Positions 8,826 through 59,903 of a stretch of DNA of 64,000 bases are shown here, in pieces. The stretch comes from Combretum micranthum. Its lineage: Eukaryota; Streptophyta; Magnoliopsida; Myrtales; Combretaceae. Made by a program: the position numbers and the translations under genes. The DNA is taken from positions 419,554-483,553 of the forward strand of contig JAMXBD010001103.1 in NCBI GenBank assembly GCA_024138025.1, in the 5' to 3' direction. Under the pieces are notes generated by a model that was given only the letters and a program-made list of their open reading frames with translations, was not told the DNA's origin and did not search any database. The stretch's first letter is position 1; each line of letters opens with the position of its first letter.

Positions 8826-10315
8826 TCATGCTTCTTTAAAATTTATGACAGTGGTAGCACTATTATGATTTTCCCTTTCATAATAATGTTTGAGCAAATG
8901 CCCATTCACCTTGAAAGTCCGATTATCTTTAGTTTTCAATTCTACTGCACCGTAGGGAAAAACTTTTGCAATTTCAAACGATCCTGACCATCTTGATCTC
9001 AACCTTCCTGGAAACAACTTCAAACGAGAATTATAACATAAAACTTTTTGTCCAGGCAAAAACTCCCCTTGATAATGTTTCTATCATGCCATTTCTTTGC
9101 TCGTTCCTTGTAGATGAGAATTCTCATAAGCTTCATTCCTCCATTCATCCAATTGATTCAATTGAAGCAATCTTTTCTCACCTACAGCTTTTTCATCAAA
9201 ATTAAGGAATTTAATGGCCCAATATGCCTTGTGCTCAAGTTCTACAGAAGATGACATGATTTACCAAAAACAATCATAAATGGGGACATTCCAATAGGGT
9301 TTTAAAAGCAGTTCTATAAGCCCATAATGCATCATCTAATTTTAAAGACCAATCTTTTCTAGATGCATTAACAGTTTTTTCCAAAATTCTTTTATTTCCC
9401 TATTGGATACCTCAACTTGTCCACTTGTTTGTGGATGATAGGGGGTAGCAATTTTGTGTGTAACACCATATTTTGACAAAAGTTTTTCAAATTGCTTGTT
9501 ACAAAAATGTGATCCCCCATCACTAATGATAGCTCTAGGCACCCCAAATCTGGTAAAAATATTCTTTTTCAAAAATTTCAAAACTACTCGGGCATCATTT
9601 GTTTGTAAAGCAACAGCTTCCACCCATTTAGAACATAATCAACTGCCACAAGTATATATTTATTTGAAAAAGATGAGGGAAAGGACCCATGAAGTCAATT
9701 CCCCAACATCAAAAAGCTCAATTACCAGATATTGTTTTGTGGTAATTCATGTTTCTTGGAAATATTACCAGTTCTTTGACATTGAGCACAAGACAATAAA
9801 TATTTCCTGCAATCACGAAACAAATTAGGCCAATAAAATCCAGATGATAAGACCTTAGCTGCAGTCCTTTGAAGACCAAAATGACCTCCTGCTTCTTTTG
9901 AATGACAATGCTCAATAATGTTAAGCTGTTCAGATTCAGGCACACAACGTCTAATTACTTGGTCAACACATTTTTTGAACAAATATGGTTCATCCCAAAA
10001 GTAGCTTTTCACATCATGCAAAAACTTTTTCTTTTGTTGATAAGATAAACCATATGGAATGATTTTGCTAACCAAGTAATTGACATAATCAGCATACCAA
10101 GGCAAACTTAGGATCTCTACTGCATGCAATTGTTCATCAGGAAACTTTTCATTGATAGGAATATCTAAACTATCAGATTCTAGTCTAGATAAATGATCAG
10201 CAATCACATTCTCAGTTCCCTTCTTATCCTTAATCTCAAGATCAAATTCTTGCAGCAACAATATCCATCTAATCAACCTTGGCTTTGCATCAGCTTTAGC
10301 AAACAAGTATTTCAA
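8826..10315 (-). pseudogene. Element B integrase (broken)
   Basis: Three open pieces in two frames. 9722-10315 begins with the end of RNase H (a [16 protein letters not shown] block) and continues into the integrase zinc finger: [12 protein letters not shown] followed later by CAQC, an HH-CC arrangement. 9342-9623 holds the core with [10 protein letters not shown] and [12 protein letters not shown], which supply the second Asp and the Glu of the DDE triad; the first Asp is in a disrupted DFMGP block between the pieces. 8826-9059 is the C-terminal domain with [20 protein letters not shown], typical of Athila. A single-base loss near the DVWG/DFMG region explains the frame change before the core. 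Not functional. Confidence 0.85.
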
Positions 10316-10638
10316 AGCAGCATGATCAGTATATATACTATGACTTTAGATCCTATCAGATAAGGTCTAAACTTGTCACAAGCAAATATAACAGCAAGAA
10401 GTTCCTTCTCAGTTGTGGCATAGTTTCTTTGAGCCTCATTCAAAGTCCGACTAGCATAGTATATAACATGAAACAACTTACCTCTTCTTTGACCCAATAC
10501 TGCTCCTACAGCAAAGTCGCTGGCATCACACATAAGTTCAAAAGGCAGCTCCCAATCTGTAATAATCACTGGTGTAGATGTGAGCTTTTCCTTTAATAAG
10601 TTAAATGCCTGCAAACAATTGTCATCAAAATTAAACAT
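10290..10638 (-). pseudogene. Element B RNase H domain
   Basis: The frame 10312-10638 carries an ELMCDASDFAVGAVLGQ block (the catalytic Asp of the DAS motif) and YYASRTLNEAQRNYATTEKE (the catalytic Glu region), a standard gypsy RNase H. The frame is lost near 10330, where the [10 protein letters not shown] block should start, and continues in another phase into the integrase piece. It lies directly downstream of RT on the minus strand. RNase H would degrade the RNA strand during reverse transcription. Confidence 0.85.
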
Positions 10639-10719
10639 TGTATCTTCTCAAGAAGATTGCAAAGGGGTTTAGAAATTTTAGAGAAGTCTTTAATAAATCT
10701 CTATAAAAACCAGCATGTC

Positions 10720-11415
10720 CTAAAAAACTTCTAACTCCCTTAACAGTGGTGGGTGGGTTTTCTCTATGATCTCAATTTTGGCCTTATCAACTTCAATTCC
10801 TCTCACTGAAACTTTATGACCCAAAACAATCCCTTCTCTTACCATGAAATGACATTTTTCCCAGTTTAAAATCAAATTTGTTTCTTTGCATCTTTGAAGA
10901 ACACAAGCTAAGTTTTCTAAACATGCTTCAAAAGACTTTCCAAAAACAGAAAAATCATCCATAAAAATTTCAATAAAATTTTCAAGCATGTCAGAAAAAA
11001 TAGCCATCATACACCTTTGAAAAGTAGCAGGTGCATTGCAAAGACCAAAGGGCATCCTCCTAAAAGCAAAAGTGCCATAGGGACAAGTAAAAGTGGTTTT
11101 TTCTTGGTCATCAGGAGCTATAGAAATTTGATTATAACCAGAATAACCATCTAAAAAGCAATAATAATCATGCCCTGCAAGTTTTTCCAACATCTGATCA
11201 ATGAAAGGAAGGGGAAAGTGATCTTTTCTGGTGGCATCATTTAACTTTCTATAATCAATGCAAACTCTCCACCCAGTTACAGTACGAGTAGGAATCAAGT
11301 GATTTTCTTCATTTTTCACTACAGTCATACCACCTTTCTTTGGTACAACTTGAACTGGACTAACCCACTTACTATCAGAGATAGGATAGATAATACCTGC
11401 ATCAAGTAGTTTCAA
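10720..11415 (-). pseudogene. Element B reverse transcriptase
   Basis: The best preserved part of B: 231 open codons. Visible in order are WVSPVQVVPKKGG, VCIDYRKLNDATRKDHFPLP, CFLDGYSGYNQI, TCPYGTFAFRRMPFGLCNAP and the catalytic FMDDFSVFG motif, in which FMDD replaces the YxDD form. The C-terminal connection reaches KIEIIEK. The DATRKDHFPLPFIDQMLEKL wording is characteristic of the Athila clade rather than the Tat clade. It is separated from protease by a broken linker and from RNase H by about 80 bases without an open frame. Confidence 0.9.
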
Positions 11416-11824
11416 AACTTCCTTTTTTACTACCTCCTTAAGTGTTGGGTTAAGTCTCCTCTGTGGTTGAACTGTGGTTTGTACTCAGCTTCCATCAAAT
11501 TTGTGAGTGCAAATATAGGGCTAATTCCCTTGATATCAGCAATAGTCCAACCAATTGCTTCTTTATGCTTCCTTAGAACTCCAAGCACTGCTGCTCTTGT
11601 TCACCTGTCAAATAAGATGAAACAATTATTGGCAAAGTATCTCCAGTTCCTAGAAAAGCATATTTTAAATGTGAAGGAAGGGGTTTAAGCTCAAGATTTG
11701 GGCTGTATCAATGATGGTACTGGCTTGCTTTCACTAGTGCCTAGCTCCTCATAATATCTGGTTTTAATTTGAGGCACTTGCTCAACTTCTTCTTGCTCAT
11801 CATCACTCCATTCATCAAGATTTC
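11416..11824 (-). pseudogene. Element B protease-RT linker, broken
   Basis: This stretch should encode the end of the protease region and the start of RT. Short acidic peptides and a RRLNPTLKEVVKKEV-like block immediately before the RT frame can be read with frame changes. No single open frame spans it. Confidence 0.6.
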
Positions 11825-12404
11825 TTAAAACAGATTCCACAGTTCTACACCTACATTCTCTTCAACAGACTCAGAAATAAACTCATCAATAGTATAACAG
11901 GAACCTTTATCAAATCTTTTCATTGCATCATAAACATTAAAGGTTACCTGATCATTTTCTACCCTTAAAGTGAGTTTACCTTGTTCCACATCAATTAATG
12001 CTTTACCGGTTGCAAGGAATGGTCTGCCAAGAATCATTGGGACTTCACGATCCTCATCCATTTCCAAGACTATAAAGTCTACAGGAAATATGAACTTGTC
12101 AACTTTCACCAAAACATTTTCAACAATACCACGTGGGTATTTGACACTTCTATCTGCAAGTTGCAAAGTGACATGAGTCTCCTTGCATTCTTCAAGTCCT
12201 AATTTCCTGAAAATGGATAGAGGCATAAGATTAATACTTGCACCAGAATCAATAAGTACTTTATCAAAATGAAATTTTCCTATAGTGCAAGGAACAGTAA
12301 AACTCCCTGATCTCTTTGTTTGGTAGGCAAGTGAGATAGACTTTTCTATAAAATCATGGAGCATTCTCCTGTAAGCATTATTGGTTCATTTCCATTAATC
12401 ATTC
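11825..12404 (-). pseudogene. Element B aspartic protease region
   Basis: The open frame 11825-12364 encodes 179 residues. It carries the retropepsin active-site motif LIDSGASINLM at about residues 36-46 and the flap/second motif MILGRPFLATG at about 110-120, with the usual GSFTVPCTIG lead-in. The protease cleaves the Gag-Pol polyprotein in functional relatives. Bases 12365-12404 continue the region upstream in another frame (a NEPIMLTGECS-like peptide) and stop at the boundary with solo LTR C. The frame change and the loss of upstream gag make it non-functional. Confidence 0.85.
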
Positions 12405-13002
12405 TGTCACGCCCCATAGGGTACCCTAAACGTAACAGTCTGCCACATGCCATATAAGATTCCCGAATTACCACCTTAGTCTTTCGAGAGTCTCATATAG
12501 ATGTAAGGCGTACCTTTACACAATAGAGTACAAGTCCGAATGGAGATAAAAGCTTAATTTGGCATGCATAGGCAATAGGATATAATTCATGAAACATAAT
12601 AAATTTTTCTAAGGGGCATTCCCCCGCAAAAGAATATTTAACGGTCCATTACAGTCATCTAAGTCTTAGAAGTTTTCTATGGAAGTCTAATACAGAAATT
12701 ACAACTTCTAGGGAAAACTCCTAGCTTCGGTACCTGTTCAGCGGGTCTCGTCGCCTAAGCCATAAATGTGTAAGCTGCAAAAGGAATGGACTGTAGGGAC
12801 GTAAGCTAACTAGCTTAGTGAGTGTAATCTCCCACAAAAACATTTATGCCATAGCAATTCAAACAAGTTATTAATCAAGCAAGTGTATGCATCAAACACA
12901 TGAGTTCAACATACATATGACCAACCGGAAATCATATGTGGATGGAATTGCCCTCCATCCCGGGTTAGCAGATTAACGACTACTGCGGTACTAACAATAT
13001 CC

Positions 13003-13141
13003 CGTTTATGGTTCACGGCTAACCTACGATTATTCGATGTCGTTTATGGTTCACGACTAACCTACGATTATTCGATGTCGTTTATGGTTCACGACTAACC
13101 TACGATTATTCGATGTCGTTTATGGTTCACGACTAACCTAC
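13003..13141 (-). repeat. 38-bp tandem repeat, about 3.7 copies, inside LTR C
   Basis: The unit CGTTTATGGTTCACGACTAA plus 18 further bases begins at 13003, 13041, 13079 and 13117; the last copy is partial. Copies are nearly identical (one ACGG/ACGA difference in the first), so the expansion is recent relative to the decay of the rest of the LTR. I did not see the array in the other LTRs of the family. Confidence 0.92.
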
Positions 13142-15137
13142 AAATGCTAATGCTCCTTCCCCTTGTGATATGCACATGTCAATTTAGCATTAGTCCAAGT
13201 AGTAGATTAAGCCAATTTACTTAGGCGATCAATCAATTTATCAGACAATCCATCATAGCTAACTATACAATCAAAGTTTATCACCCGGTTTCGATATTCT
13301 TAATTTGAATTCTCACATCATCATCAACATATAATTTCCCATCATTCCCCATTATTCATATTCCATTCATTTGTCCTACATTCTAGTGCACTACTTTACA
13401 AGCACATACAATAAATGAATCGGGAAGAAAAACTCACTCCGCCATTGGTACTCCGTTCTTCTAGTAATAATAGTCCGGAGGCAAATAGTCACCGTCCACG
13501 GGTTCACCTATATAAGAAAATCCCTAATAAGTATTCTACCAACTTAAGACACTAAAACTCTAAGAAAACTTAGTGAAACCGAAATCGCGTCATTTTCGAA
13601 GTTCCGTTTTAAAATGGCCATAACTTGGTCGTTTTAAGTCGGAATTTCGCAAATTTTATACCGATTTCTATCATCGGAAGAGCTTTCTAAATATGAAGTT
13701 TAAATCAAGTTTTGAAAATATCTAAGCCTCGGAATTGAGGGATCAGATCTGTACAGTGGGTTTCTTGATTCCAAAAATGCGGTTTTCATGAATGCATTTG
13801 AGATTCTTAAGTATGAAATGATACTAAATGCAATGGTAATGGTTTTCCCTATCATGAATGTCATGATGTGAACTTTAATGAGTCTATGTTCTTATAACTT
13901 TTTAGATTTAAAGAATTTTAAAAATAAACTTTTCTTAGAAACCATTTTATACCAATGTTTAGTAAGTGAATTTTCTACACTTGACACACCTACATATTAC
14001 AAGGATTTTCTTTAGAAAAACTTATTTTGTTTAAAGAAATTTTGACCCTTATATTAGTTATATCCTAAGGCCTTTATTTCTTTAATAAAATCCACATTTA
14101 TAAACTTTTAAGTGGGTCTTTTACTATGGGGTTTCCAAAAATCCGAATTTACAAAAGTCCATTTTCAAGTTGATTCCTTTAGGAAAAATATATTTTGTAC
14201 TTAAAACTTTAAGTATTTATTATACTTATATCCTAAGGACTTCATTTGTTTAAGAAAATATCATTTTTGAAGTTGGAAAAATAGTGTTTTCTAACCCTAC
14301 ATCCATTATTACGAATTTTGTCTACATGACTTTTAACTCAAAACTCCTATGGACTTTATTTCTTGTTTCCAACATTTTCTTTAGTAAAAACTCATTTAGA
14401 CTCATGAAAAATATTACCAAACCTTATCTATTACCCATAGGCTTCATTTCTCTTATAAAACATATGTTTAGAAGTTGATAAAAGTGTTTTTGACCTAGGT
14501 TTTCAAAGTCATCCGAATTTTCATAAGTCTTTTTCTTGCAAAGTACTTTTCTTTTTGACTTCATGGACTCATCTATCTATAGATCTATATACTAGGAAAG
14601 TCATTTACTAAAGACAAAAGTATTCAAGACTATTAATGCACATAAAACAAAATAATAATGAAACTTTAAATGCCTACATGATCATGAGTGATAAAGTGAT
14701 GGATCTACTTTATCAAATGCTTAAATGAGTTTTGAAAACATAAAAACTATATTTTTATAAAAGATCTTTTGTTTAAAAAATACTTTTTGATGGAGAAAAA
14801 GTAAAGCTTTTGGCATGAAAGTTTCTTTAAGTGATAGATCTACTTTGTAATGGTTCGGTATTCTTGTTTTGATCTTTCCTTGACCCTAGCAAAGCTCATG
14901 GGGTCCTTTGGTTGGAAATATCCAAGAATCACTTAGCCATAACAAAGTTTTATGATTGGAAGGAGTGAAACTTTACTTACTTGAAGATAAATAGAGGATG
15001 AAAAGAAGAAATGGGAGTTGTGTGTGTGGGGGGAGCCTCAAAGTTTCGGCCAAGGAGGAAAAATAAGAGGTTTTTGAGAGTTTTTCACTTTCCAAAAGTT
15101 GAGAATGAAAGAATGAAGAGAGAGAGAGAAAAAGTAG

Positions 15138-15146
15138 TATATATAG
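15138..15146 (-). promoter_or_regulatory. Candidate TATA box of LTR C
   Basis: On the minus strand CTATATATAC, followed downstream by a C/T-rich tract. It corresponds in position to TATA-like blocks of the sister LTRs D (39994-40003) and E (56121-56130). Confidence 0.4.
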
Positions 15147-15856
15147 GAGTTGGAATTAGGTTAAAGAAGTAAAAAATTTTCAAAAGGAGCATGGATGGGG
15201 GGGGAGGGGGGTGGGGTGATTGGCGCCGGTTTGGAAGCTAAAGGGGGGGGAGTTGTCTTTGATTTGCCTTTGATTTGATTCTTGCATCACTTGTCATAAT
15301 TGTATTAAAGATGAAGGGACAAAAGTTATGGAAGAAAGGAAGGGATTTGATTGATGGTAAGAGTTAGATTTGTAGGTGTGGTAATAGGTAGTGTAGGTGG
15401 TACTTTATGAATAGTAGTGAATAGTTGACAAGACAATTTAATTCCGGTAGTAATGAAATACGAATAAAAAGGCTATAACTGTATTTTTCATAAACCGGAA
15501 AATTATGAAAAATATATTTTTGAAATCCTTATTTTATTTCGGTTCAAATGAGTACTCATAAGTATATTTTTGAAATTCTAGTTCCGAGGCACGTTTTTCT
15601 ATAATGGGTCTCGGGATGACCCGGAATTGAAATTTTCTTAAAATCTGATATTTTCTTAGTTTGAAATATAATCAAGAACTATAATCAAATTAAATTTTTT
15701 AGAAAAGTTTATTAATTGGAAACCGAGGAAAAGCCGGAATTAGGGTTCCTAGTTCTCACTCCAGACTTGAGCTATTCCGGTTTAGGGTTTTGGTTTCCGG
15801 TTCTAGGGGGTTAACTTGGCTACTTGAAAAACCGGGGTGGGGGGATTTACAAATTC

Positions 15857-15886
15857 TCTTCTTAGTAAGCAATTCCTTGATAACCA
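15857..15886 (-). pseudogene. Element B trace of late gag / pre-protease
   Basis: Thirty bases between LTR C and the truncated 5' LTR read ELLTKKRE on the minus strand, matching the lysine-rich motif just upstream of protease in Athila. It is all that remains of the gag side; it then joins directly to LTR sequence, marking a large internal deletion. Confidence 0.5.
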
Positions 15887-16651
15887 GGGAGGGGAGATCC
15901 CTTTATATAGGAAAAATTTCATGAGAAGCATTAATGGAAAATTTCAATTTCAACTTGTACGCGGTAATTACAGATCCTAGCCGGCGGCTTATAGGCGGGA
16001 GTAAAGGCTTTTCCTTCCTTGCATAGGCAGTACACTGGCAGCTTTCATCTTCGATTACAAGTGTAGGCCGCTGCTACGCCGACAGCTTAGATATAAATCT
16101 AGCCGGCGTATATTATGAAAAATGAAAGGTTTGACCTATTTATAAGGAAAGCCGTTGGCTTTGATGCCGGCTTAGACAGTCCATCAAATTTGGTCTTTTC
16201 ATTTGTCACCGAGCATGTGTTATCTACTTGTGTCTCCTAATCTTCTATCTACACTGCCTCAACGCCGGCGGCTTAGTATCCGGAGTAGGTTGTAACTCCT
16301 TTTGCACTGGCATCGTTTGAATTCTGAGCTACCAGCCTTCATTCTATACTGGCCTATTCATCTTCTATGCCGGCGGCTTTCAGGTGGCATATATTTAGTT
16401 GAGTCAAGGCTTGTAAAGCTGGCAGTGTAGGCAACGGCTTTGAATGAGTACATCTTGTAAGCCGTCTCAACGTTGGCGGCTTTGACTTGAGAAAAGCCGA
16501 CGCACCCCTGAGTTTTTCCTATTTTTATTCCAAATTTTCTTGTTTTGATTTCTTTGTCCAATTTAGACCTGAAACATGAATTTTAACCAAAACAAGTATC
16601 CATTCTAGCTATTTTGAACATCAACAACTTGTATATAATATGATCTTATTA
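15887..16651 (-). repeat. Element B 5' LTR, truncated (about 765 of 1770 bp)
   Basis: Homologous to 3838-4613 with scattered substitutions and small indels. On the minus strand it keeps the LTR start and the U3 with the GC-rich motifs. It ends just past the TATA block at 15901-15910, so R, U5, the primer site and gag are deleted. The right end is followed by target duplication ATAGG. Confidence 0.82.
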
Positions 16652-17535
16652 ATAGGTTCTGAATAAGGTTACGAAAGAGTTTGGACTCAAGATATAGCTT
16701 AGCATCGCTTATCACTTTCGGACCGATGGACAGTGTGAGTGGACAATTCAAACCTTAGAAAGCATGTTGAGGACATGTGTTTCGAAAATTCAAGGGGAAT
16801 TAAAATAATCACATACTGCCAAGTGAGACTTGCTTGCAATGACAGCTATCACCAACCATTTGGATGCCACTCTATGAAACCTTATATGGACAGTATCATG
16901 AGACACCCCTGTTTTAGAACGACATAGAAAAGCTTAACAATGAGTCATGCTTAAGACATCAAGGCAGTTAATAAAGTAGGAACGTCTCAGAAAAAGGAGG
17001 AAGAAACTTGGGATAGGTGAAGAAGATAGGCAAATTGGAAAAGAAACAAGCTCATGAAATTCAAGTGGGTAACCACGTGAGCTTGAAAGTGAATTCCACT
17101 AAGAAGGCACGAAGGGTAAGTACCCTAAAAGGGTCAAGCTCGAGATACCCTGAACCTTTGAGATGCTAAGAAAGATTGGAGATCTAGCGTATTGGTTGGT
17201 CCTATATCCCAAATTTCATAAGAAACATACCGTATCTCCTATGATTATGTACAAAGGAAATATGTACCAGGCCCGGAAGTAATCATGGAATTAACACCAT
17301 TCAGTCCAAAGAAACCTTGCTCAAGAGGCACATCTAGTGATAGACATGGATGCGAGGGCGCAAGGATTGCTTACACAAGAGGCTAGATAAGTGAAGATAT
17401 TAAAGAAGAACCATGCAACTGAGGAGACAATTTCAAAAACCAGAGAGTAAATCCAAAGTAAGTATTTTGAGTTGATCAAAAAGGGATATGTAAGTTTCAA
17501 TTTTGCAAACAAAACTCTATTTAAGGGGGGTACGT
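16652..17535 (+). pseudogene. Element A pol remnant, right part (integrase end)
   Basis: Continues A's integrase after the B insertion. A KVTKEFGLKI-like block precedes RTDGQCEWTIQ (HPQTDGQSERTIQ in intact relatives, holding the catalytic Glu) near 16700-16755. The C-terminal domain reads VGNHVSLKV near 17070 and FEMLRKIGDLAYWLVLYP near 17160-17210, then MLRKYVPGPE-like sequence. A final VKILKKNHATEE-like segment near 17390-17425 matches the tail found in Tekay elements. Many stops and small indels. A G-rich tract at 17523-17530 is the likely polypurine tract before the 3' LTR. Confidence 0.78.
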
Positions 17536-21136: not shown

Positions 21137-22080
21137 GACATATTGTTGGTCAAGATACGTGTGAGATTAAGATCTTTGTTCTTGTAAGATGTTCTGTTGG
21201 TAGATTTGAGTTGGAGCAATACCAAGTATGACCTTACCATGTTTGATTGTATGTGCTTGTAGGATTAGTTGTTAAATTAACTTAATAATTATTAGACCTT
21301 AATTGAACGAGTGTTGCTTGTGCTTGGCTACGGTTAGTAAAGACTATGATAGTAGTGTGATAATAATGCTGGCAACCTGATGATCCTTGTGTAGCAGTGT
21401 CCCAAGTGAAGTTGCACCTGGATATGATTCTAGTAGATTAGGAGTCATTACCAGCTTAATTATGGAACACATCTATATATGTATATATTATTATAATATG
21501 GTTTTTCATCGGGGTCATGAGTTACTCTGGGTTTAGGATTATTGATCAATAGTCCTAAACTAAGTTGTTTGCAATCTAATGAAAAGATAATTAAATTGTG
21601 CTTGTTGCATTAGAATATAAGTTATATGTGATATTGTGATTTGCATGTTCATGTGCATGTGGTTTCGGTTTGGCGTACTGGGCATTTTTCGCTCAATCTT
21701 ATTTTTCCCACAAGTACAGGTGAAGATTCTATGATTAATGACTTGACGAGCTATGATATATTTGTCGATGATGGAGAAAGCGATAGCGGTTATGACCATT
21801 TTGCTGATAATTGAGATTAATTATTAGTAATTTGAGAAGAAGAAACATATGTTGATTTATTTAGTTTCTTTTAGAGACATTTTACATGTAAGGATTTATC
21901 ATTTTTGTTTTAGATTGGATTTTTAAGTTATGCTAGTTAATGTTGAGAACAAATTATTTTGATATGAAAAGTTTTAAAAGTTACCCTTTATGTGAGTGAT
22001 TGGTGATATTTAAAATACATATTTGTGGTTTTAGAAATCTATAGCCTTAGCATGTCTATTCTTCTAAGGACATGTGGTGG
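21137..22080 (+). repeat. LTR 'X' fragment of another gypsy family, part 1
   Basis: Reads like the 3' half of a gypsy LTR: a TGGGCATTTTTCGCTC block near 21680, CACAAGTACAGGTGA near 21710, and the CTTAGCATGTCTATTCTTCTAAGGACATG approach to the end. It is interrupted at 22080 by the CACTA element and completed at 29301-29331. Its left part was probably separated by insertion of element A. Assignment rests on resemblance to known Tekay-like LTR ends. Confidence 0.55.
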
Positions 22081-22099
22081 CACTACAACAAAATGGGCC

Positions 22100-22672
22100 T
22101 TTGGCTACGTCTAATAAACGTGGCTAAACATCAATTAAACGTGACCAAAGATTTTTTGTCACGTTTTTTTACACGTGGCCTATAGACGTCGCCAAAGGTC
22201 TGTCGCAGATTTGATAAGTAACGTTAAAAATTGAAACGTCGCCAATGGTAGTTTGACAGCCAAATACACTTTGTTAGGCCACGTTTAAACATGGCTTATT
22301 ATCATGTTTTGGTCATACTTATGTGTGGCTAAATATGACTAATATCCATCCCACCAAATATAAAAGGAGGGAAACTTGTGATCGGCGACGTTTAAACGTG
22401 GGTAAACATTTTTATTAGTAACGTGTAAACGTAAGTAAATTACATAATTGGCGATGTTTAACCGTGACCATACACAGGTTGAATAAGCTTCGTATATGTA
22501 TGTTGGACCACAATATGATTTATTTAGCGACGTTTACACGTGACTATGCTAATACATTGGCGACGTCTGATTGTTATTTTGGTTTAGCGACGTTTACACG
22601 TGGCTATTCTAATGCATTGGCGACGTCTACTTGTGTGGTTGTTATTTTATTTAGCGCGTTTAAACGTGGCTA
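22100..22672. repeat. CACTA left subterminal motif array
   Basis: About a dozen variants of GGCGACGTTTAAACGTGGC occur, for example near 22280, 22385, 22451, 22528, 22586 and 22651. Many contain the self-complementary CGTTTAAACG core. Subterminal repeats of this kind bind the small transposition protein (TNPA) in studied CACTA elements; binding here is inference. Confidence 0.8.
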
Positions 22673-23093
22673 TTCTTGTTAAGAAGATGTTAATACTCAA
22701 ATTGGTTTATTTGGCAATATATATTTGTTTAGTGTAACATATGCACAATTAACAATATAAACCTGTTTGCTCACAATATAATTGATACCTGCTACTACTT
22801 CAGCACATGAAAATTTATATATGAAAAATGTCACTAATACATTTTGGAGCATACAATGTGCTCGATATGTAATAAAAACTAATAATATAAAATTACTTAA
22901 AGATCACCATGACCATCGTTGCATTAAAGGGAAAAAAAAACAAAAACTAATATGCTTTAGTGTCCTTACAAGAAACGTTAGCGTAAAATCCAAATTACAT
23001 CAAAATGGGCATATGTACACACTTTATCGCATTGATTTGACCCCATTCATGTCAGTTGCTTCAGCCAAAAAACAAAAAACAAAAACTGAGTAC

Positions 23094-23435
23094 TTAATTT
23101 TCTTCCTCACTATTGACATCATCATCTCCAAGCGATGGATTTGATGAAGTATGTCTTGCACTTGCAGAAGTATTTTCCATTCGTGTCAATTTGTTCGGTA
23201 AAAAAAAAAAAATAAGAATAAAAAAACTTAGTCTTTAATTTTTTTCCTCACTATCGTCACCATGCAACAGACTTGGAGAAGGATCTCTTTCATTTGGATT
23301 TGCTACCATGCAATATATAGATACAATTATTGCAAGATTGAAAATCGTTAATAAGTCTATGGGAAAAAACGCAAAACTAACCTGAACTCTTGCCTTGCAT
23401 AGTTGCATGCTTTAAAGATGTACCTGTGATGAATA
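23094..23435 (-). pseudogene. Possible terminal exons with duplicated acidic C-tail, inside CACTA
   Basis: A minus-strand frame 23180-23094 encodes a 28-residue peptide ending in GDDDVNSEEEN and a stop. About 130 bases upstream, at roughly 23310-23235, a related tail reads NERDPSPSLLHGDDSEEKK. Further upstream, at about 23386-23427, a 42-base segment with splice-like edges (CACAG before it, GTTAGT after it) would encode TSLKHATMQGKSS. These may be the last exons of a captured gene or of the element's own TNPA-type gene, with the last exon duplicated. No family recognised. Confidence 0.3.
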
Positions 23436-24442
23436 TAATGGATAATACTAAGTTTTTTTTTTTTTAAAGCTAATAAATTAAGGAATAATGCATTAAAACC
23501 AAATAGGAAATGTACACACACGCCAATAATATTAACCAGAATTATTAGTAACTAGCAACTTGATTGGACAATAGAGATTATTTAATGCTCACTCATTTTC
23601 ATGCGACTTTTAAGGAATTAAATCTCTTCCACCATGGAGGATTTTTAGCATAAGTGCAGACATTTCAAGCATAATAACACCTTGTACAGACATTTCATTG
23701 TGCAGTGGCAAATAAAAACCAGGGCAGTGCCTATTTCATAGTCCCATCATATGTGTATTCAGTTGTATGTTGTCTACAACTCAATTCTAATTAAAATGAA
23801 AAATGTACTAAAAACTTAATGACACCAATACATTAAAAATTGAACTTACAAAGGAAAAGGATTATTGCAAGTTGAACAAAAGAATAAATACATTTTATGA
23901 GAGGTAACTACTTAGCACTATGAAAGAGAGCAGTTCTCTTCATCTTAGTGGCAAACATATTGACCCTACTAGCAAATACAACAACTAACAAGTATTTTCA
24001 ACCAAAGCTACATATATGAGCTACTTTATCAAATCAAAATATAATCATTCAACTTCATAGTTCCCTCAAAATATATTCCAGATATTAACAGAGTATAGCA
24101 TGATCAATAGTCCATAAATTTCCCACAGATAAAGTACAATTGTAAAAAATGAAAAACAAGAGCCAATTAAGCAAAACTAATAATATAGAAACAGATTATT
24201 AGATAACATAGAGGGTAAATAGAGTTGCTCGTGACTGAAATCATTATAATCAACATTGTCGGAAAAGTATGGTCATGAGAGACTATCAACCAAAGCTATG
24301 CACCCTACCTACATTCAGTGCCCCCATTTTGACCCACAACCAAAAGTTTTGACTCCTTTGTAGACTTCTCTTTGATACATGCCCATTCAAATAAATCATA
24401 TGTGGAAGATAGCTAATTAATCAAAGAAAGATAGATACTAAC

Positions 24443-25029
24443 CTTAGCTTTCTCCATTCTCTTTACACTTCCATTAACATCATTTTTCAATACCATACCT
24501 CTAACCACGCTAGAGTTATGCAAACTACCTCCAAGAAGCTTGGCAACTCTTAGATTATCCATATTAAAATTTATAGGATTCTTTGAGAAAACTTGAATGC
24601 AAGCCTTTTGAAAAGAGATAAAGAATTCAATTGTAACATTAAAACATGTTATATAAACTACCATTAAGGCAAACTTGACTGGTGATACATATATCGGTGA
24701 CAAGAGAACACAACAAGTCTTATTGTCTAAATTGTTTCCTAGCAATAATAGCTTTCATACTACATACCACTTTGCTCTTTATTTCTCACATCTATTGTTT
24801 CAAAACAATTCTTTCAATATCTCAATTGTCTACAATTTTCAAGAAAGCAAATAGTCAAAATTTCCCCCATTTAATAATTCGTAAACACATCTCGATTATA
24901 ATAAATGTAAAACACTTTACCTTATTGATACCTTTAGAGTAGCCACTAATAATTTCACTTGGATGCAAACTAGTTCTAATAGGCTTCTTTGCATTCGGGA
25001 GGAGTTCAAAAGCAATAAGGAAAAGCTAA
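24443..25029 (-). pseudogene. CCT8: Captured fragment of chaperonin CCT subunit theta (TCP-1 theta)
   Basis: Three exons with introns retained on the minus strand. Exon 24921-25029 has AG/GT splice edges and encodes the block ELLPNAKK...SLHPSEIISGYSKGINK. Exon about 24693-24829 contains TIEILKEL, VRNKEQ, then KAIIARKQFRQ and LLCSLVTD, with stops and frame changes. Exon 24443-24604 encodes ACIQVFSKNPINFNMDNLRV and then AKLLGGSLHNSSVVRGMVLK, ending at a GTTAGT donor. These match consecutive segments of the theta subunit of the cytosolic chaperonin that folds actin and tubulin. Only a part of the N-terminal half is present and exon 2 is disrupted, so it is a gene fragment. Intron retention shows capture at the DNA level. 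Confidence 0.85.
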
Positions 25030-26445
25030 CTACAACATTAAATGAAAGAATAAATACATTTTATGAGAGGCACCGTCTTGATAAAAAACCAAGTTAATGC
25101 AAGTTAACCAAAAGCTTAATTACATTTTAACCATTATTACCCTACATGCTAAAGACAAAATCATGATTAGTGGTATTATGTATAGCAACAACTCTCAAGC
25201 CTCATGTCGATAAAAATGGTTTAGCTATATAGTCTATACCAACAAAAAAAAAAAAAAGAAAAAATCACAATTGATCTTGTAAGATTGATTCTAGCAGTAG
25301 CCATTATATGGTAAATTACACTTATTTTGATTGCTATATTCTCTATTAAGTCTCCTCTATATTGCCTATAAATTAAATACCTTTGGCAGTACTTTTATTC
25401 TCTCAAAGTAACTTCAATATCTTATGCTTATGATCACTTTCGGTCTATACATCATGGTGACAAGTTAACATTTTGTATAGAACTAACATATAAGAAATAG
25501 AATATGGAAGATATCAAGATACACCAAAAACCCAAAACCTTAACAAACTATGTTTATTATGGGCAATTAATTAAGAAATAGAATACAAAGATATCAAGAA
25601 CTAACATTTTGTAACAGTTCCCATGACATGACCTTAACCGCAAAATTAAGTAATTATTTTGTTAAATTCTTTAAATATAATAGGAATGGATTTTTTTATT
25701 CCTTCGCCCATTCCATTGCATTCCTTAAATTTCAATCATTTTATTTCAAATAATTTAATTATTCCAAACATCAAATAATGATATAAAAAAGATCATTATT
25801 ACAATTTACATTAATTTTGTGATTAAACAAAAGTAAATTGCACCATAGATATCTTATATAGTACCAATTGTGTTCCTATATACCACAACTTTCTATTAGT
25901 TAATGAATTATCCTAATTTGACCCCCTATGAAATAGAGTCTAAACTTCATAGACACAAACTAATCAACATGAATTTGATATTCTCTTCCCAACGATGACG
26001 GCAAAAAAATACTAATGTCCCCTCCTCTTAATTATCACAGTATAAAACTAAAAATTAAAAGAAATAGAGGGAGCTCCTCTTTTCCCCCTCTCTTCACTTT
26101 CTATCTTTTTTAATCAATCTTTACTCCTCATTCCTTCTAATGAAGACTATCAAATTTTTTAATCATAATACTTCCATTAGACCGAAGAGATTAACTAGAT
26201 CCTAACAAAAAAGTTTTCTTACATGTACAGTGACAAAACAAAACTAAACATAAATCATAATGCAGTTTATCCAAAATTAAACAACTCCATCAGATTTTAA
26301 TAAACTTTAATGCATAAAAACAATAATAGTCGACAGATCCATAAGAATCAATATAACATGAACATCCACATGCATTCAAACCACAAGAACAAAACATAAA
26401 TCATAATAAAACATCATAAAAATGAATAAATAGGTAAACAGGTAC
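25030..26445. other. CACTA interior without recognised gene
   Basis: AT-rich sequence between the CCT-theta exons and the E2 exon. It could hold intron or flanking DNA carried along with either capture. I looked for the second E2 exon (a VAEDMFHW-type block) and did not find it. Confidence 0.4.
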
Positions 26446-26790
26446 CGGCACTGCAAGATGTAGGCGGATCCTTCTGTAAATCCTTGAGTTCCTTCAAGAT
26501 CCTCTTCGATGCCATCACCAAAACCTAACAAAAAAAAAAAAAAGCAACAACAGCAACATAATTAAATCAAACGAAAATCCTATCCAAGACCAAATCGAGC
26601 AACGCAACATTGCAGGCACAGATCGGTGATTACGTACCTAGGAACGAAGAAGAAATGGGAGGTTCGATCCGATTTAGCTGAGGATGAGATTAGACGGAGA
26701 TTGCTGTTGTAGGAAATGAGAAAATATTGCTTTCCCTTTTACCGTCACCTCCGAGCTCTTCAGATCTGGCTCTGCTGATTCCACCCCTAT
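26446..26790 (-). pseudogene. Captured 5' end of a ubiquitin-conjugating enzyme E2 gene (UBC8/10/28 group)
   Basis: The first coding exon, 26515 down to 26446, encodes MASKRILKELKDLQKDPPTS followed by CSA and the first base of Gly, then a GTAC donor at 26445. The protein start and the phase-1 intron position match the highly conserved UBC8/UBC10/UBC28 class of E2, which transfers ubiquitin from E1 to E3-bound substrates. A 5'UTR intron is kept: donor TAG|GTACGTAATC at 26638/26637, acceptor TTTGTTAG|GTTTTGGTG at 26525/26524, then ATG. An upstream UTR exon reaches about 26780, with a TTTATTATAG-like promoter element near 26787-26796. The catalytic Cys lies in exons that are absent, so no enzyme can be made from this copy. 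Confidence 0.9.
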
Positions 26791-27369
26791 AATAAAAATT
26801 AAAACCCGCATCTTTATTAGCATTAATGTTCCTGTTGCGAAACAAACAAATAAAGTGTGGGGCTGGGAAATTCTGTCTTAACTATGCAATTTCATAATCT
26901 CAAGAATTTTGAGAATCTCATACTTTATTATTATTTTTCCACATAGATGAGGGAATATGCTGATTCAGTGACAGATTATAAAAAGAGCAGTCCCCCTTTT
27001 TCCAAAAGATTCAAAGAAGTAAAATAAACTTTAAAAAAAGTAGAATAACATTTAGATTTGTTCCCTTGTTCTAAACGAAAAGAGGGGAAAAAATAAAAAC
27101 GTCCCGGTACAGGCCTTTCGTCGAAAACAGAATTTAGAACAACAATTGCATGAATAAGAATTCAAATGTAAGAAGACCATGAATAAGAATTCAAATGTAA
27201 GCCAAAATTTTGATGAAGTGAAATTCCATATTTGAGCTATGCAACTATTAATTTCACTAAAACCATTACCTAAGATCTTTTGAGCGCAACAAAGGGGCAT
27301 TTGAACCATCAATCCTATCGAAAGAATCATAGCCATGCCTAACAGGAGAAGTCAACATCAGGCTATGGT
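26791..27369. other. CACTA interior between E2 promoter and small-gene stop
   Basis: Contains the presumed 3'UTR side of the upstream small gene and the promoter side of the E2 piece. A direct repeat of about 23 bases (GACCATGAATAAGAATTCAAATGTAAG-like) occurs at about 27146-27168 and 27175-27198. Confidence 0.35.
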
Positions 27370-28896
27370 TTAATCTTTAGGCACATTTCCAATGAAGCTC
27401 TGCAGTATTAAAATAAAAAATGTCAATGATGAGATTCATTAAGGCATTACCTTTTTCAATGGATATTCTTTTTTCAAGATATCAGCATGAAAAAGAAAAG
27501 AAAGATTAAAATTAGCATCATGGGAGCATAGAATGGTCTTCTCTTATGCTCTTCGGTTGAGTCATTACATAGAGACAAGAAAAAAATAAAATATATTAAA
27601 ATTATAATTTCTATATATATATATATATATATTCACATAACTTATTTTTTAAGCAAATTAAACTAATAGTAAATAATTAAATGCAGCAATTATACACGTA
27701 AGTGCTTACAAGACTGTGTATGAGATTTCTGTTTATCTCTTCAGCATTTCTAACCTGCATTAACAATTGACAATCCAGAAAGCAATAGGGAATTTAACTT
27801 GAATTATAGCATAACAAAAAGGATAGGCATTGTTAGATGAATTGATTGTAACTTGCTTACCTTTTTCTTCCTGGTGTCAATCTGACCATTGAGAACCTTG
27901 TACTGTTGTCAATATATATATATATATATATAATTTAGTCACTTGATTCAGATTTCATTTAATTGAACCAAGTCCTTAACAATTCAAAATGTGAAATAAC
28001 CTACAGCAACCATTTTTCAAATGAGTCTTCTCCACTTTCAAACCACCAAAAAATAAATTGGTCATAAACTTAAGGAAAATACATGTTACCAACAACTATA
28101 TTTTGAATAATCAATATACCTAGTATATTTAACTTGAAATTTCAATTTCAATTTAAAAAAAAAAAAGAGTGCGAACTAACAAGTTATTCATATTTATTTA
28201 AAACAAAGAGCAACCGGCTTACATGTGAAAAAATTACACAATCTGATACTTGAAATTTCAATTTAAACATTTAAGATTAAAACAAGTGAATTCAAAATTA
28301 AAACACTATGAATCGGAAAAAAAAATCAAAAAATAAATTTATAGAACATGTTGAACCCTAACCATGAAAAAAGATAACAACTTTACAAAAGGATCTCTTT
28401 TTTAAAAGTAAAAAAAGATCTGAACTTTAAGGAGATGAAGAGATAACACAATTTCAAGATTAGATCAAGATAACCAAACTAGTTTAAGATTCTGTTACAC
28501 ACTAGGTACACACACATATAGTGGTAGTAGTGTTAGTGTTGTACAATCGATACATCAGATATCAAGCCAATACTCCCATTCGCAAACCCATATTCGATTG
28601 AACAAAGAAAAACAAGAAACCCACTAAAAGAAAGTAATTCACGAGAAAAAAAGATCTCCCATTTGATTGAAATTCAAATATCAAATACAAAACAAGCTAA
28701 AATATAAAAAAAAGTTGAGTTTTTGGCTAAGGAAAGTGAAAAAGCATACTTTCTTGTGAGGTCTGGCAGGACAAATGGGGAAGGGTTTGCTCTGACCAAA
28801 GGAAGAGCTTGGGAGACGGCTGCGGCGTTGTGGTAGAATGAACTGTGAATGGGCTAGGGCTCTGGAGTGGGTATGCAATAAATGTTTTATGACCAT
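27370..28896 (-). CDS. Candidate four-exon small gene (87 codons) inside CACTA, unknown product
   Basis: Proposed exons on the minus strand: 28750-28896 (ATG at 28896; 49 codons), 27861-27902 (14 codons), 27710-27754 (15 codons) and 27370-27399 (9 codons plus TAA). Splice edges are AAA|GTATGC, ACAG|TAC, AAG|GTAAGC, GCAG|GTT, CTT|GTAAGC and GCAG|AGC. Every exon boundary is phase 0 and both internal exon lengths are multiples of three, so the frame stays open throughout. The peptide starts MVIKHLLHTHSRALAHSQF, is rich in Arg, Ser and Pro (organelle-transit-like composition), contains YKVLNGQIDTRKKK and ends SFIGNVPKD. I do not recognise the family. It could be a captured host gene, a truncated one, or a chance run of splice-like sites. 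It lies just inside the right subterminal region. Confidence 0.4.
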
Positions 28897-29104
28897 CTCG
28901 TTATGTACGAGTAATGATCTTTCGGGGGGAAAAGCAATCCTATCAATATTATCTTTTATTATATAATTTATATCAAGTTATAAGTTTTAATTTGTAATTT
29001 TTTTTCAAGGAATAAGTTTTTTTTTTCTTTTCAAATTTAGTTATTTTTTTCCTACGTGGAATGGATTTTATAAAAAATAAAATTTATTTTATTTTATTTC
29101 ATAG

Positions 29105-29297
29105 TGAGAATAGGTAACGTTTGTTTTTTATAAAAGTGTTACAAATTTAATAATAATTCAATGTAATCTAAATTTTGTTTACAAACGTGACTAATAGTAT
29201 ATATTTACTTATGTTTAATAAGAATGACTAGAGTATAAATGAAAGGCGACGTTTACAAAATCTATAGACGTCGCCAAATGTCAAAATTCTTGTAGTG
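29105..29297. repeat. CACTA right subterminal region
   Basis: Holds fewer copies of the same motif family than the left end (AACGTTTGTT, AAACGTGACTAATAG, GGCGACGTTTACAAAATC and TAGACGTCGCC). It finishes in TTCTTGTAGTG. The asymmetry in motif number between the two ends is typical of CACTA elements. Confidence 0.7.
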
Positions 29298-29300
29298 TGG

Positions 29301-29429: not shown

Positions 29430-31220
29430 AACCTTACTCATAACTTATGTCATAATCCTTTTGTCATATGGTATTTGGATTGAACTTGAGGCATGGATAA
29501 TGTCATCCTTATATTGTCCAATCTTATCTTTTCTTGATCTCTAAGTAAACTGATAAAACAAATGATATTAATCATACTATCAATTCATTTGAGTATAACC
29601 ATACATTTCTCAATCTCACTTACTAAGAGGCTTAGAGATATTTCTTTCATAATTGGAGGGACAAATCCTATCTTTATCACTCATCTTCCTTTACATGATT
29701 CATGCTATGGTTAATCAAAACCTTTATAATTATTTGATGAAAGATAACATTTGATAATGCTAAATCATAATGATACTCATGTTGGAATCTAGGTCTAAGG
29801 TTTTGGCGACATAGTTATTATGAGAATCACTTATAACATTAACCATGTAGCCATCTTATAGTGGGTCAATTTGGTACTTAGTTCTCCAATATGTACTTAT
29901 GAGTCTGATTCGTATCTCCACACAAATAAACATCTCATAATTATCAATTAAATCTTATACTTGATTTAATTCATTATTATTCCGATAATAATGACTTTCT
30001 AGGGCATTTAGAGTAATTACATGATTATTTATGGACATTATTATAAATAAATATGCAAACAATATAATAAAATGTATCTTAGAAAAATTATAGGATAACA
30101 ATATCTGATGATTGGCCTAGGACACAATCACTAATACACCACAACATAGCATTCGAATACTAGCTACAATTCACATGATTAGACTTTTGATTATGCTAGT
30201 CCAATTGCTATGCCTTGAGGTATGTCCAACATCTAGATGCTCGCTAAATAGTTGTAAAGTCCTACAACTTCATAGCAAAACAAAAACACAACATATAACT
30301 CACATAAACATAATCTCATCGTGTCACAAACACATTTTATCAATTAAGTCTAATTTAACTCTATTGTTTGAGTAATTAGGTAGTGCATTTCCTAATCAAA
30401 ACCCAATTTGAATAATCTAGTTCAACATGTGGTACAAGGTAGGTTCCGAGTACAAATTTCAATACCCTATATTTTATAAGGCATGGCATAGGTGAGACAT
30501 TGTACTATTATTGATTGTGCCCTAGGCCAATTACTGGATATTGTCATTTTATACGTATTAATAAAGGACATTCAATATCATATTGTTTACATGTGTACTT
30601 TATAATGATACCCTTGAATAATCATGTAACTATTCTAAATGTTGTTGGATGCTCATTATTAAGGAAACAATAATGAATTAAATCTAGTACGAGTTTTGAT
30701 TGATAATGTGATATTTATTTGTATGGAGATACAAATTAAACTCATAGGTACGTGTTATAGAACTAAGTATCAGACGGACTCACTACAAGATCGCTACATG
30801 ATTAGAGTCCCAAGTGATTCTCACAATAACAATATCATCATATTTTTGCATCTGAAATCACCATGGATTCCAACACGTGAGACATTGTGATTCTACTCAA
30901 TCAAATGTCACCTTTAACCAGATAATTACAAAGGTTGTGATAGAATACAATGTGAATCATGTAGAGAAAGATAAGTGATTGAGATAGGATTTGTCCCTTT
31001 CGTTATGAAAGAGACATCTCTAGGTCCCTCGATAAGTGAAACCAAGACATGCATGGTCGTGCTCAAATGAATTGATGGTATGATCAATGTCATTTGTCTT
31101 ATCAGTCCACTTGAAGATCGAGAAATGATAAAATTGAACAATATAAATGTGACACTATCCATGCCTTATGTTCAATCTAGATATTATGTGACTAAAGGAT
31201 CATGGCATAAATTATAGATC
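29430..31220. repeat. Large imperfect inverted repeat (arms about 700 bp)
   Basis: The left arm, about 29430-30145, matches the reverse complement of the right arm, about 30490-31220, along its whole length with scattered differences. Anchors: GGGACAAATCCTATCT (about 29658 and, inverted, about 30986), TTAATTCATTATT (about 29963 and, inverted, about 30672) and GGCCTAGG (30114 and, inverted, about 30508). The spacer is about 345 bases. The right arm runs into LTR-like sequence ending at 31901, so the arms may be two LTR copies in opposite orientation. No coding sequence seen. Confidence 0.75.
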
Positions 31221-35010: not shown

Positions 35011-35542
35011 ATATGGGAAAGAGAGAACAAAAGAGAGAGAGAAGGAAAGAATAGGTAGGTGAAGAAAAAAGAAACGAGAGGATAATTACAAAACTTAGGA
35101 TATTTTAGAATTTAGGTATAGGTTTAGAACTATTAGATCTATATCTATAGTTCTATAAGTATTTAAAAAATAATTTTAGAATCGATAGGTTAGAATTTAA
35201 GAACTCTAGATAATAACTTAATTTAGAAATTTACTTTAGATAAAAAGATATTTAATTTGAGTTCAGGTTTAAGAACTGATATTTTTATACAAGCACATAA
35301 ACTCAAATTTTGTAAAGATTTAGGAATTAATGTTTAGGCTAGTAATCAAGAGTTTAAGAATCCTCTAAACATTTTAATGACTTGGTCAGAGAATTTATAT
35401 TTCAAATCTCAAATTCGACTTAGTTAATTATTAATCTAGTTATGTCAACTTGTCTAATTATATCCTATAATTCATTTAACTTATCCAAATCTATCTAAAC
35501 TTAATTTCTAATATATATAGAGATTTGGGTCATTTCAATCAT

Positions 35543-40360: not shown

Positions 40361-43287
40361 TTGTAAGGATGATTTCAAGCTTCTTTTCTCACAAAATATC
40401 ACTTTATCATGCCCAAAACTTTGAAGCTTCTATTAGCACGAATTTTTATCATGTCAAGTGTGTAGTTTTACTAATATCTTATTTATCATGTTCCATGCTT
40501 TCATCTAATCTAATTTTCTATGTTTATGTCTCTAGTTATGGTTTATGCCTTTTCTTTCATCAAAACCTTTCTATTTTGCTTTCAAACTTTGAAGTTCATG
40601 ATTGATCCAAACCAATATCATGCCAAATTTATGAATCTTATCAATGTCTTGTTTATGTTGCTTCTTATTATCATCTAATCTAACTTCTATCTTAATATCT
40701 ATACCTATAAGAGCATAAAGCTCACTAACCCAAATATTATTTATGTTCTTATTACTAACTAATCTAACTTTTATTTACTTGTTCTTTTATTTTTGTATCA
40801 AAAGATAAGTCTAGTCCCTAGCTAGACTTGGACTGGTTATATATCAAGTCCATAAGAGATTGGTCGTATATCAAGTCTCGGGAGCCTTGATATAGTCTAA
40901 GACTCCCAATACTTGTTTTTCTTATTTTTGTTTCTCCAATTATTCATGGGACTGGAATACTTCAAGTCTCGGGAGCCTTGATTTAAAAGCTAAGACTCGC
41001 AATACTTGACCTTTTATTATCTTGTTATCTTACTTATTATTTTGATGTTATCTAATATTTTTGCTTGCCACTATCCTCATATTCATGTAAGCTAAAGGTT
41101 GTTGTCTAAACCATAAAGTTTAAACTACACTTTTTGCAAATAAATTTTTGTCACTTAGGAAAAGTCTTAAATGAAACTTAGAATTTTTGAATCAAAGAAA
41201 TCCATTATTCTCAAGCTTTAGAAAGAACTTACTATAATTTTGAAACACCATTACTTTGAAAAGCTTTTTCTAAAACCATAACTATATTAGTATTATTGTT
41301 ATTTTCTAAATTTAATGTTGATAATTATTTGTTATAAAAAAAGGGGTCTTTCTTATAAACACAATATAAAGGAAAATCCCATAAACAACCAAAGGAGATA
41401 TAAGTTTTTGAATCAAGGTTTAAAAATATCAAAATAACAATAATAATATAAAAAAAACATAGGGAATTAATAGTAAAAATGACACCAGTGTTAAATATTT
41501 CAAAAGGAGAAATATAGAAATTCATTTTAGGAAAACGGTAAGTTAAACATAAAATACTCCTTGAAAACAAAAGAATCAAAGTTTCATTTTCAAAGAATTT
41601 ACAAAAGGAATTTTTGTAACTTTGTTCTTTTTTTTTTTTCCCAAACTTTCAAAAGACATTGTTTTTACTAAAGAATTTTAATTTGGACAACAAACACTTG
41701 AATCATGAATGAAATATTAGTTATATATGTATGTAAAGGAATTTTTCAACTATATAGATAACTGAGTATTTATCAAATGATTTTTGGATAATTTGAAGTT
41801 TGAAATTTATTTTCAAAGGAAGGGAATTTTCATAATATATCTGATGGCCTTTGTTTTGTAACCCAAATGACCTAACTTAATACAAATAACCTTAGAAATG
41901 GATAGATCTTTTCGAGTAGGTAGAAAACGGTATATTGTTTGCGCAATTCTGAGTTAAAATGACCAAGTTATGACCATTTTAAATTGGAATTTCCTTCTAT
42001 ATGAATTTTAACGATGTTATGACTTAGTTTTTGATAAGTACCACAGAATCAATAAGAAATACTCATTATGGGTATTCTTCTTGATTAGGTGATCTCGAGA
42101 AGGAGTATTCATACCCGGAGGATTATTTTGATTAGTGGATTTATCGATTAACTCATCCATAAGAAAGATAGATCCTCATGGCCAAGTGAGTTTATTTCCT
42201 ACTTTTTTTGTACTTGGTTGTGCTTGTAGCTAAAGGCACTAGAAGTAGGAAAAGATGAAAATGAATTATGTATGATAATATTGGTTGAGAGAATGTTAAG
42301 CATACCGAGGCATGAATCATTCTTAATTAACTTATGTGTTACTATTATTCTATTGGATTGTGTGCAAATTCTATGATCACCTTTAAATAACTCTAATCAT
42401 ATACTATGAATTATATTAATTGATTCATGCATATCACGTAGTTAGTTTCATTGCATGAGTTGTTATTCTCGATGGAACAAGAGTTTAGTAGCTGGGTATG
42501 CAGTAGCCAGAAATCTGCAAGATGGGCGATAGGAGCATGAAAGAACTATTTTGTGATGGGCTAGTAGGAGCCTGAAATAAACTACATGAGTTGGATTTAA
42601 AGATGGGTTTTAAAGAGCCTGGAACACCTAACCGGAATGGAGGGGTAAATCCATTCAAACATATGATTTCCAGTAGATCATATGTATTGCTTGATCACTT
42701 GCTTGATGCATTCATATGCTTGTTAATAACTTGCTTGAAATTATTTATACAAGTACGTTGATTCAGGAATATTCTCACTAAGCTAGTTATGCTTATACTC
42801 CAATAGACCTTTGTTGTACAGGACTAATATCTTTCATGAACAAGGACTACATATACCGGGTGGAATTATGATTTAAGGAGCTTCTGGGAATCTTTTGAAG
42901 ATCTTAGGTTAAATATCTTTAATGTCTTTTGGTATTAGTATTATTCTGTTGTGAGAAAGATTAAGTTGTTATTATGATTGTTTGGAGAATTATAAGGGAA
43001 AACCCCTAAGATGATGTAAGAATTGTATTCTCTTAATGATAAATTTGATGTTTATATAGATTCTTGTATGTTGTATTTACTATCTCAAACTATACATCCC
43101 ACCGGCGTCTCCTATTGTTGTGATAGACGCCTTACATATGGTGTTGAAAATTTTTGCGTGACTTCGGGAAGTCATTCCTAAGTTTTAATACCGCATGTGG
43201 CGGATTGCCACGTTTAGGGTACCCTTCGGGACGTGACAATAGGGACATAGACCGGTTAACCGAACCATGAACACCCCTATTTATGAG

Positions 43288-59800: not shown

Positions 59801-59903
59801 AATTATATTCCTATAATGCATTTGATTTATTTAATTTATCTAAAATTAATTTCTAACTTTATTTGTTATTCATTTTCACTACATATAATTGATACTTAAG
59901 TTT

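Follow-up and report, generated by a model that had tools for sequence, protein, structure and literature searches.

A CACTA transposon of Combretum micranthum carrying fragments of four host genes and probably joined from two halves of separate origin

A stretch of 64,000 nucleotides from contig C1103 of the 1.86-Gb assembly of Combretum micranthum (the window, to which all positions refer) holds at 22081-29297 a CACTA element with CACTACAA...TTGTAGTG ends, inside which lie fragments of four host genes: CCT-theta (CCT8), a UBC8-type ubiquitin-conjugating enzyme E2 (UBC), an HMA/HIPP-type gene (HIPP) and the B-class MADS gene DEF/AP3 (DEF). We consider the element, with a probability of roughly 0.8, to be a non-autonomous and recently mobile member of the CACTA (En/Spm) superfamily, of the gene-capturing Pack-CACTA / Tgm-Express type, whose halves were joined after separate origin. 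It is placed among non-autonomous elements of the Pack-CACTA type because of its ends, the target duplications, the absence of a transposase, the three donor loci and the relatives that bear subsets of its pieces. The reading of an initial annotation of this stretch, in which a CACTA transposon had captured host gene segments, is supported and its individual observations are confirmed in part; neither of the two findings that it had named as refuting, an internal TNPD-type transposase or segments that are the host locus, was obtained.

Ends, coding content and genomic copies

CACTA terminal inverted repeats (CACTACAAC... at the left, ...TTGTAGTG at the right) are present at 22081 and 29297, where the initial annotation had placed the termini, and are enclosed by the TGG target-site duplication that it had described (left copy 22078..22080, right copy 29298-29300; no strand assigned). 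The left terminus CACTACAACAAAATGGGCC opens a subterminal motif array (GCGACGT, ACGTTTAAACGTGG; 22081..22700, plus strand), and the opposite end is formed by a module that belongs to the right end of an older CACTA lineage (28572..29297, minus strand), including an exon-like block at 28.75-28.9 kb and the terminus TTCTTGTAGTG. This module is 88% similar to a sequence on contig C95 (over 28819-29297) and 75% to one on C1929, both reaching the CACTA end. Subterminal repeat arrays, a feature of the CACTA (En/Spm) superfamily, had also been reported initially and proved real: 9/9 window occurrences of GCGACGT lie inside the two ends of the element (0.33 expected; at most 2 in 100 shuffles), and ACGTTTANACGTGG, at up to 3 mismatches and with palindromic sites scored on both strands, has 22 sites, 15 of them in the left end, against 8.8 expected. 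Among the 115 open reading frames (ORFs) of the element (stop to stop, at least 30 aa), a Pfam scan found no transposase family at E values up to 0.1, in agreement with the earlier statement that no transposase is visible and including the TNPD type that was sought; the best family among them was TCP-1 (5e-8). A scan of the window for RNA genes gave no tRNA and no RNA family reaching its gathering score. The element has the features of Pack-CACTA / Pack-TYPE elements, namely no internal transposase, host coding DNA with donors elsewhere and several mobilised copies.

The left 620 bp has at least 40 long genome matches at 92-100%, the window included, a lower bound for which 40 of 796 candidates were scored. 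From each of the 20 best left-end matches after the window 9.5 kb was taken, and the resulting 21 copies group into five forms, A-E. Form C (7.2 kb) comprises the window, L009 and L010, and form B (about 9.0 kb; L011, L012 and L015, the last without its first 14 bp) is form C with an additional 1.8 kb at window position 25451. Form D (5.7 kb; L020) has the left 818 bp fused to the right half. Form A, with 11 copies (L013, L016-L019, L021-L025, L027), has window positions 22081-25451 in common, and form E (L014, L026, L028) positions 22081-23181; the right ends of forms A and E, where visible, are weakly like that of the window. Six of the 20 fetched copies (L009, L010, L013, L019, L020, L028) have their own 3-bp target duplication at the correct right end (GGG, AGA, AGG, TCA, AAT and AAT); in 13 others the right end coincided with the fetched edge, lay outside it or was not found, an internal match in L011 being left uncounted. 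The three form C copies differ by 0.21-0.37%, and no single target duplication is common to them.

For its movement the element presumably depends on relatives that act in trans, such as L014, the left 1.1 kb of which is 97% like its own. Between 5 and 9 kb from its left end, L014 has the transposase domains Transposase_21 (1.1e-69 and 4.5e-21, in two frames), Transpos_assoc, DUF4218 and DUF4216.

Captured fragments and their donors

All four identified host pieces lie on the minus strand, as the initial annotation had claimed for its captured segments, and three of the four have a donor on another contig with more of the gene, which identifies them as duplicated copies and not the host locus itself. 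The left half begins with a module (22081..23181, minus strand) that matches L014, L026 and L028 at 96-97% and includes a putative terminal exon of the CACTA family's own gene (about 23092-23180). A second copy of this terminal-exon region follows at 23177..23450 on the same strand, about 75% similar and matched over about 23177-23330. The outer copy is within the left module common to the transposase-domain relative, and the inner copy, the diverged version, may mark the place where two CACTA lineages meet or stem from tandem duplication long ago. What had been proposed as a possible duplicated terminal exon is therefore most likely CACTA sequence.

The CCT-theta fragment (23911..25021, minus strand) consists of four exons and is present as initially annotated, albeit as a decayed piece. 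Exon 1 spans 25021-24920; exon 2 (about 24832-24692) contains stops and frameshifts and has AT in place of the expected GT at its inferred end; exon 3 (24604-24443) has an open frame and retains its splice sites; and exon 4 (23985-23911) is a weak match by itself (E 0.14) but follows in colinear order. When the exons are joined, with X at stops, the theta subunit matches best, 10 theta sequences being the first 10 of the 39 listed. The fragment is flanked by perfect 26-bp direct repeats (23879-23904 and 25045-25070, no strand assigned). Its genome search, in which 24/24 candidates were scored, gave 24 matches, 17 at 99-100%, 2 at 93-96%, 2 at 84-85% and 3 short ones at 75-82%; the third exon is frameshifted in 3 of the 17 closest copies. 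Beyond this fragment, at 25451..25452 (no strand assigned), a 5-bp ATACA repeat marks the point from which an internal 1.8 kb, present in the 9.0-kb form (L011, L012, L015), has been deleted.

In the right half, the E2 fragment (26254..26725, minus strand; donor on C216, L058) comprises the 5' region, the first coding exon (26515-26444) and the start of intron 1 of a UBC8-type gene. The 24 residues of the exon are identical (24/24) to PDB chains 7xed_A and 4x57_A, the latter titled 'Ubiquitin-conjugating enzyme E2 8', which confirms the 5' end of an E2 gene recognised initially; they also match what we take to be the AtUBC8 sequence. Relative to the donor, 457/472 gap-free aligned bases are identical (96.8%; 3.2% substitutions), and the next E2 coding exon, 2.3 kb further in the donor, is absent from the element. 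The protein match is perfect because the capture is recent: the exon differs from the donor by a single silent base, and the identical 24 aa are encoded in 7/7 copies read. Selection on this exon inside the element was considered and dropped in view of that one silent difference. Other candidate donors were rejected, L044-L049 because the start codon is gone in 6/6 and stops occur in 5/6, L052-L054 as degenerate in the same way, and L051 as holding a stop; in L050 the exon is intact and paralogous (62/72 match). Together, the degenerate UBC8 exon-1 copies (L044-L049, L052-L054) have lost the start codon in 9/9 and contain stops in 8/9, and another repeat family has perhaps spread them.

A 9-bp filler separates the E2 piece from the HIPP fragment (26735..27185, minus strand; donor on C386, L059), an intron plus the start of an exon. 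This fragment was overlooked in the initial annotation, and a first Pfam scan gave a weak HMA match only (0.015). Of 447 gap-free aligned bases, 437 are identical to the donor (97.8%; 2.2% substitutions). The donor gene has three HMA matches, one of them exceeding the Pfam cut-off, and its protein ends in CSVM; HIPP is the name that we take to apply to genes of this kind. At the edge of the fragment is a perfect 24-bp direct repeat (27149-27172 and 27178-27201, no strand assigned), of which the donor has one copy followed by its first 8 bases only (CATGAATA), so that 16 bases have been copied a second time.

The DEF fragment (27535..27983, minus strand) holds exon 5 (27902-27861, 42 nt) and exon 6 (27754-27710, 45 nt) with introns and the very beginning of exon 7, and its donor is found on C37 and C3575 (L042/L041), two loci that are 99.2% alike and perhaps two alleles. 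Identity to the donor is 410/445 gap-free aligned bases (92.1%; 7.9% substitutions), and both exons keep their AG and GT borders. A Pfam K-box match (0.015, under cut-off) gave the first hint towards DEF, and a database search with both middle exons in the query found four DEF records. The residues of exons 5 and 6 match the DEF sequence as we take it to be at 19/26 positions, and the Antirrhinum DEF database record has the same residues in this region.

These two exons are the middle exons of what had been presented as a candidate four-exon small gene, and no such gene exists. Its 'exon 1' (28.75-28.9 kb) lies inside the right-end module common to older CACTA elements, and its last exon is within a spacer (27190..27530, no strand assigned) common to the older relatives C1835, C621, C376, C92 and C95 (87-93%). 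A protein search with the four supposed exons joined (87 aa) returned 2 candidates, none scored, and in PDB and Pfam only the weak K-box hint; two frames of the supposed exon 1 had no match in PDB. The spacer may be another, older capture. On C1457, C508, C2 and C626 it also occurs, there split into two parts with about 480-520 bp between them.

Capture order, joining of the halves and alternative histories

The four pieces are distributed unevenly among the relatives. All nine HIPP matches in the genome (9/9) are eight elements plus the donor, and the same eight elements contain the E2 piece, the other 16 of its 24 matches being the UBC donor, a piece at the HIPP donor, and weaker copies or paralogues. 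The 29 DEF matches are those eight elements, C198, two host loci and 18 stretches of at most 80 bp. Target duplications were read in 4/8 elements with E2, HIPP and DEF together (TGG, GGG, AGA, AAT), and CCT-theta is also matched in 6/8. L020, C482 and C198 are absent from the CCT-theta match list (24/24 candidates scored), which reading confirmed for L020. C198 has DEF (96%) and the DEF flanks (98% and 97%) and is absent from the UBC and HIPP match lists. C1835, C621, C376, C92 and C95 have both DEF flanks (85-95%) with no DEF match; in C1835, the only one in which the slot between the flanks was read (L063, C1835:108900-110300), it is 1.33 kb long and matches neither the window nor the donors. 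Among the 20 fetched copies, the 11 of form A have CCT-theta without the right half, and form B tracks form A to about 3988 in the copies and then switches to the right half.

The CCT-theta half and the right half thus most likely arose apart and were then joined, because 11 copies have the CCT-theta half alone and C198, C482 and L020 the right half alone. In the right half, DEF probably came first and UBC and HIPP later, since divergence from the donor is 7.9% for the former and 3.2% and 2.2% for the latter. In the proposed series, the left half would have consisted of the left end and a decayed CCT-theta piece, with the right half evolving in a separate element, where a DEF fragment replaced an inner stretch and E2 and HIPP fragments were then added beside it. 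Joining of the two halves would have produced the 9.0-kb form, in which a 1.8-kb internal deletion gave rise to the form of the window, which then spread. Assuming 7e-9 to 1.3e-8 substitutions per site and year, rough ages are about 3-6 My for DEF, 0.9-2.3 My for UBC and HIPP, and 0.1-0.3 My for the copies of the window's form.

Several observations weigh against this history. The fetched copies are those with the most similar left ends and not a random sample; for C198 and C482 the lack of CCT-theta is absence from a single match list, neither having been read; and L020 may also represent the 9.0-kb element after a deletion. Donors were located for 3/4 pieces, CCT-theta excepted, and part of the DEF divergence falls in AT repeats. 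L026 has a right end at which the target duplication does not match, and in L014 the right end is beyond the sequence read, so that its transposase domains may belong to another element, and the tnp2 domain is split over two frames. Finally, of five edges read, the HIPP right edge alone bears a clear mark of template switching, the others having little microhomology.

A single lineage could instead have gathered the four pieces in series, with L020, C482 and C198 losing CCT-theta by deletion. In C1929, which was partly read, a CCT-theta piece (82%) is followed after 3.6 kb by a right end like that of the window (75%), so both were perhaps together early, and in L020 the left end meets the right half at five shared bases, TTAAA, in a deletion-like manner. 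However, this history demands a separate loss in each of the three right-half elements, and the 11 fetched copies that share the CCT-theta half differ rightward, with right ends 72-73% similar to the window's where these were compared (L013, L019). We regard it as unlikely, if still worth serious consideration, and prefer the joining of two halves because no CCT-theta match is listed for C198 or C482.

That the captured exons form a working chimeric gene under selection is very improbable. The constancy of the 24 aa of the E2 exon in 7/7 copies, the one CCT-theta exon that is open with both splice sites and the preserved DEF splice sites would fit such a gene, but CCT-theta has stops and frameshifts, with a further frameshift in 3/17 copies, and one silent base between the E2 exon and its donor is too little for selection to show. 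In its present state the CCT-theta part is unable to code for a functional segment.

As for mechanism, the DEF and HIPP pieces could have entered by template switching while a stretch within the element was repaired, and the halves could have been joined when CACTA elements fused or exchanged ends. Copying from a second template is suggested for DEF because the flanks of the replaced stretch continue in the DEF-less elements. Fusion or exchange of CACTA lineages, in line with the published model (PMC8903248), is suggested because left ends are 97-99% alike across forms, whereas right ends of different forms are 70.5-73.3% alike, and because of the second terminal exon at 23177-23450. The left end of L020 (87-92%) is lower because its junction lies inside the 1000 bp compared. 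The 1.8-kb deletion joins at ATACA and the L020 halves at TTAAA.

The same unlike divergence of the end lineages and the same second terminal exon would also suit a single uptake, in which two CACTA insertions close to each other fused and enclosed the host DNA between them, as in the published Pack-CACTA model (PMC8903248). This is contradicted by three known donors on different contigs, with unequal divergence, and by relatives holding subsets; fusion could explain the joined halves but not a one-time uptake of four genes, and we give it hardly any credence. The idea that the segments are host loci themselves, against which the initial annotation had itself cautioned, or chance similarities can be set aside, the host-locus reading being refuted for E2, HIPP and DEF by donors with further exons on other contigs and by at least eight element copies.

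Surrounding repeats, known systems and biological meaning

Elsewhere in the window, a Gypsy-type LTR retrotransposon occupies 3831-16653, with direct repeats of about 785 bp that are 92.8% alike (3831-4615 and 15882-16653); the ORFs that these enclose include protease, reverse transcriptase, RNase H and integrase domains. Close to the CACTA element, an inverted repeat of about 700 bp (76%; 29440-30136 against 30506-31215) spans 29440-31215, and dispersed repeats at 72-84% pair 1-860 with 53374-54223, 41545-42469 with 54142-55055, and 35032-35511 with 59373-59856.

Elements of this kind are already known, and it is the clarity of the capture record that is unusual. The closest described case found is Tgm-Express1 of soybean, likewise with pieces of several unrelated host genes. 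To this 5.7-kb CACTA element five such genes have contributed exonic and intronic stretches, and the pieces are spliced into chimeric transcripts of F3H, the gene that harbours it (PMC1947982). The element described here is, unlike Tgm-Express1, known from sequence alone, with relatives and donors in one genome that reveal a partial order of capture. With Pack-CACTA / Pack-TYPE elements it has in common the CACTACAA ends, a target duplication, internal host coding DNA and the lack of a transposase (PMC8903248, PMC13317346), and groups with added pieces and fused elements (A, B and AB there) are similar to those found here (PMC8903248). Unlike the cases detailed there, which are short Pack-PIF and Pack-Mariner elements, four donors contribute to 7.2 kb here, the target duplication has 3 bp against 5 nt in the sets described there, and an internal slot was replaced besides the joining of halves (PMC8903248). 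CACTA elements of Chenopodium also captured a piece of a flower-development gene, APETALA2, although there it is 80 bp long and upstream of a transposase-associated domain (PMC8978399). Animal Pack-TIRs are likewise described as capturing by template switching at internal breaks, with microhomology at many breakpoints; those are TIR elements in which gap filling was inferred mostly for single-copy cases, whereas here it would concern a mobile plant CACTA family (PMC8277862). No CACTA element with DEF, HIPP, UBC8 and CCT-theta pieces was found among the records listed in the literature searches, in which subscription papers were mostly outside coverage.

Most probably the element is parasitic and its cargo filler, from which chimeric transcripts may by chance arise. 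A more far-reaching proposal, that this CACTA family repeatedly takes host DNA into the same inner stretch, exchanges halves with other lineages and keeps the captured pieces in its own transcriptional direction, each capture lengthening a chimeric pre-mRNA by further exons, is judged doubtful. All four pieces follow the direction of the L014 transposase ORFs, an agreement with a chance of 1 in 16, which is weak evidence. If the proposal were true, the direction of capture would be non-random and the family would be a natural exon-shuffling series with datable steps. Whether DNA transposons gain host genes by fusion of neighbours or by template switching is debated, and here both seem needed. 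Three donors, an element with four captures, elements with fewer, DEF-less slots and a transposase-domain relative are found in one genome, where the steps can be ordered and the junctions read. Further, at least nine elements contain part of the floral identity gene DEF/AP3, so that effects of small RNAs on a gene of development could be tested.

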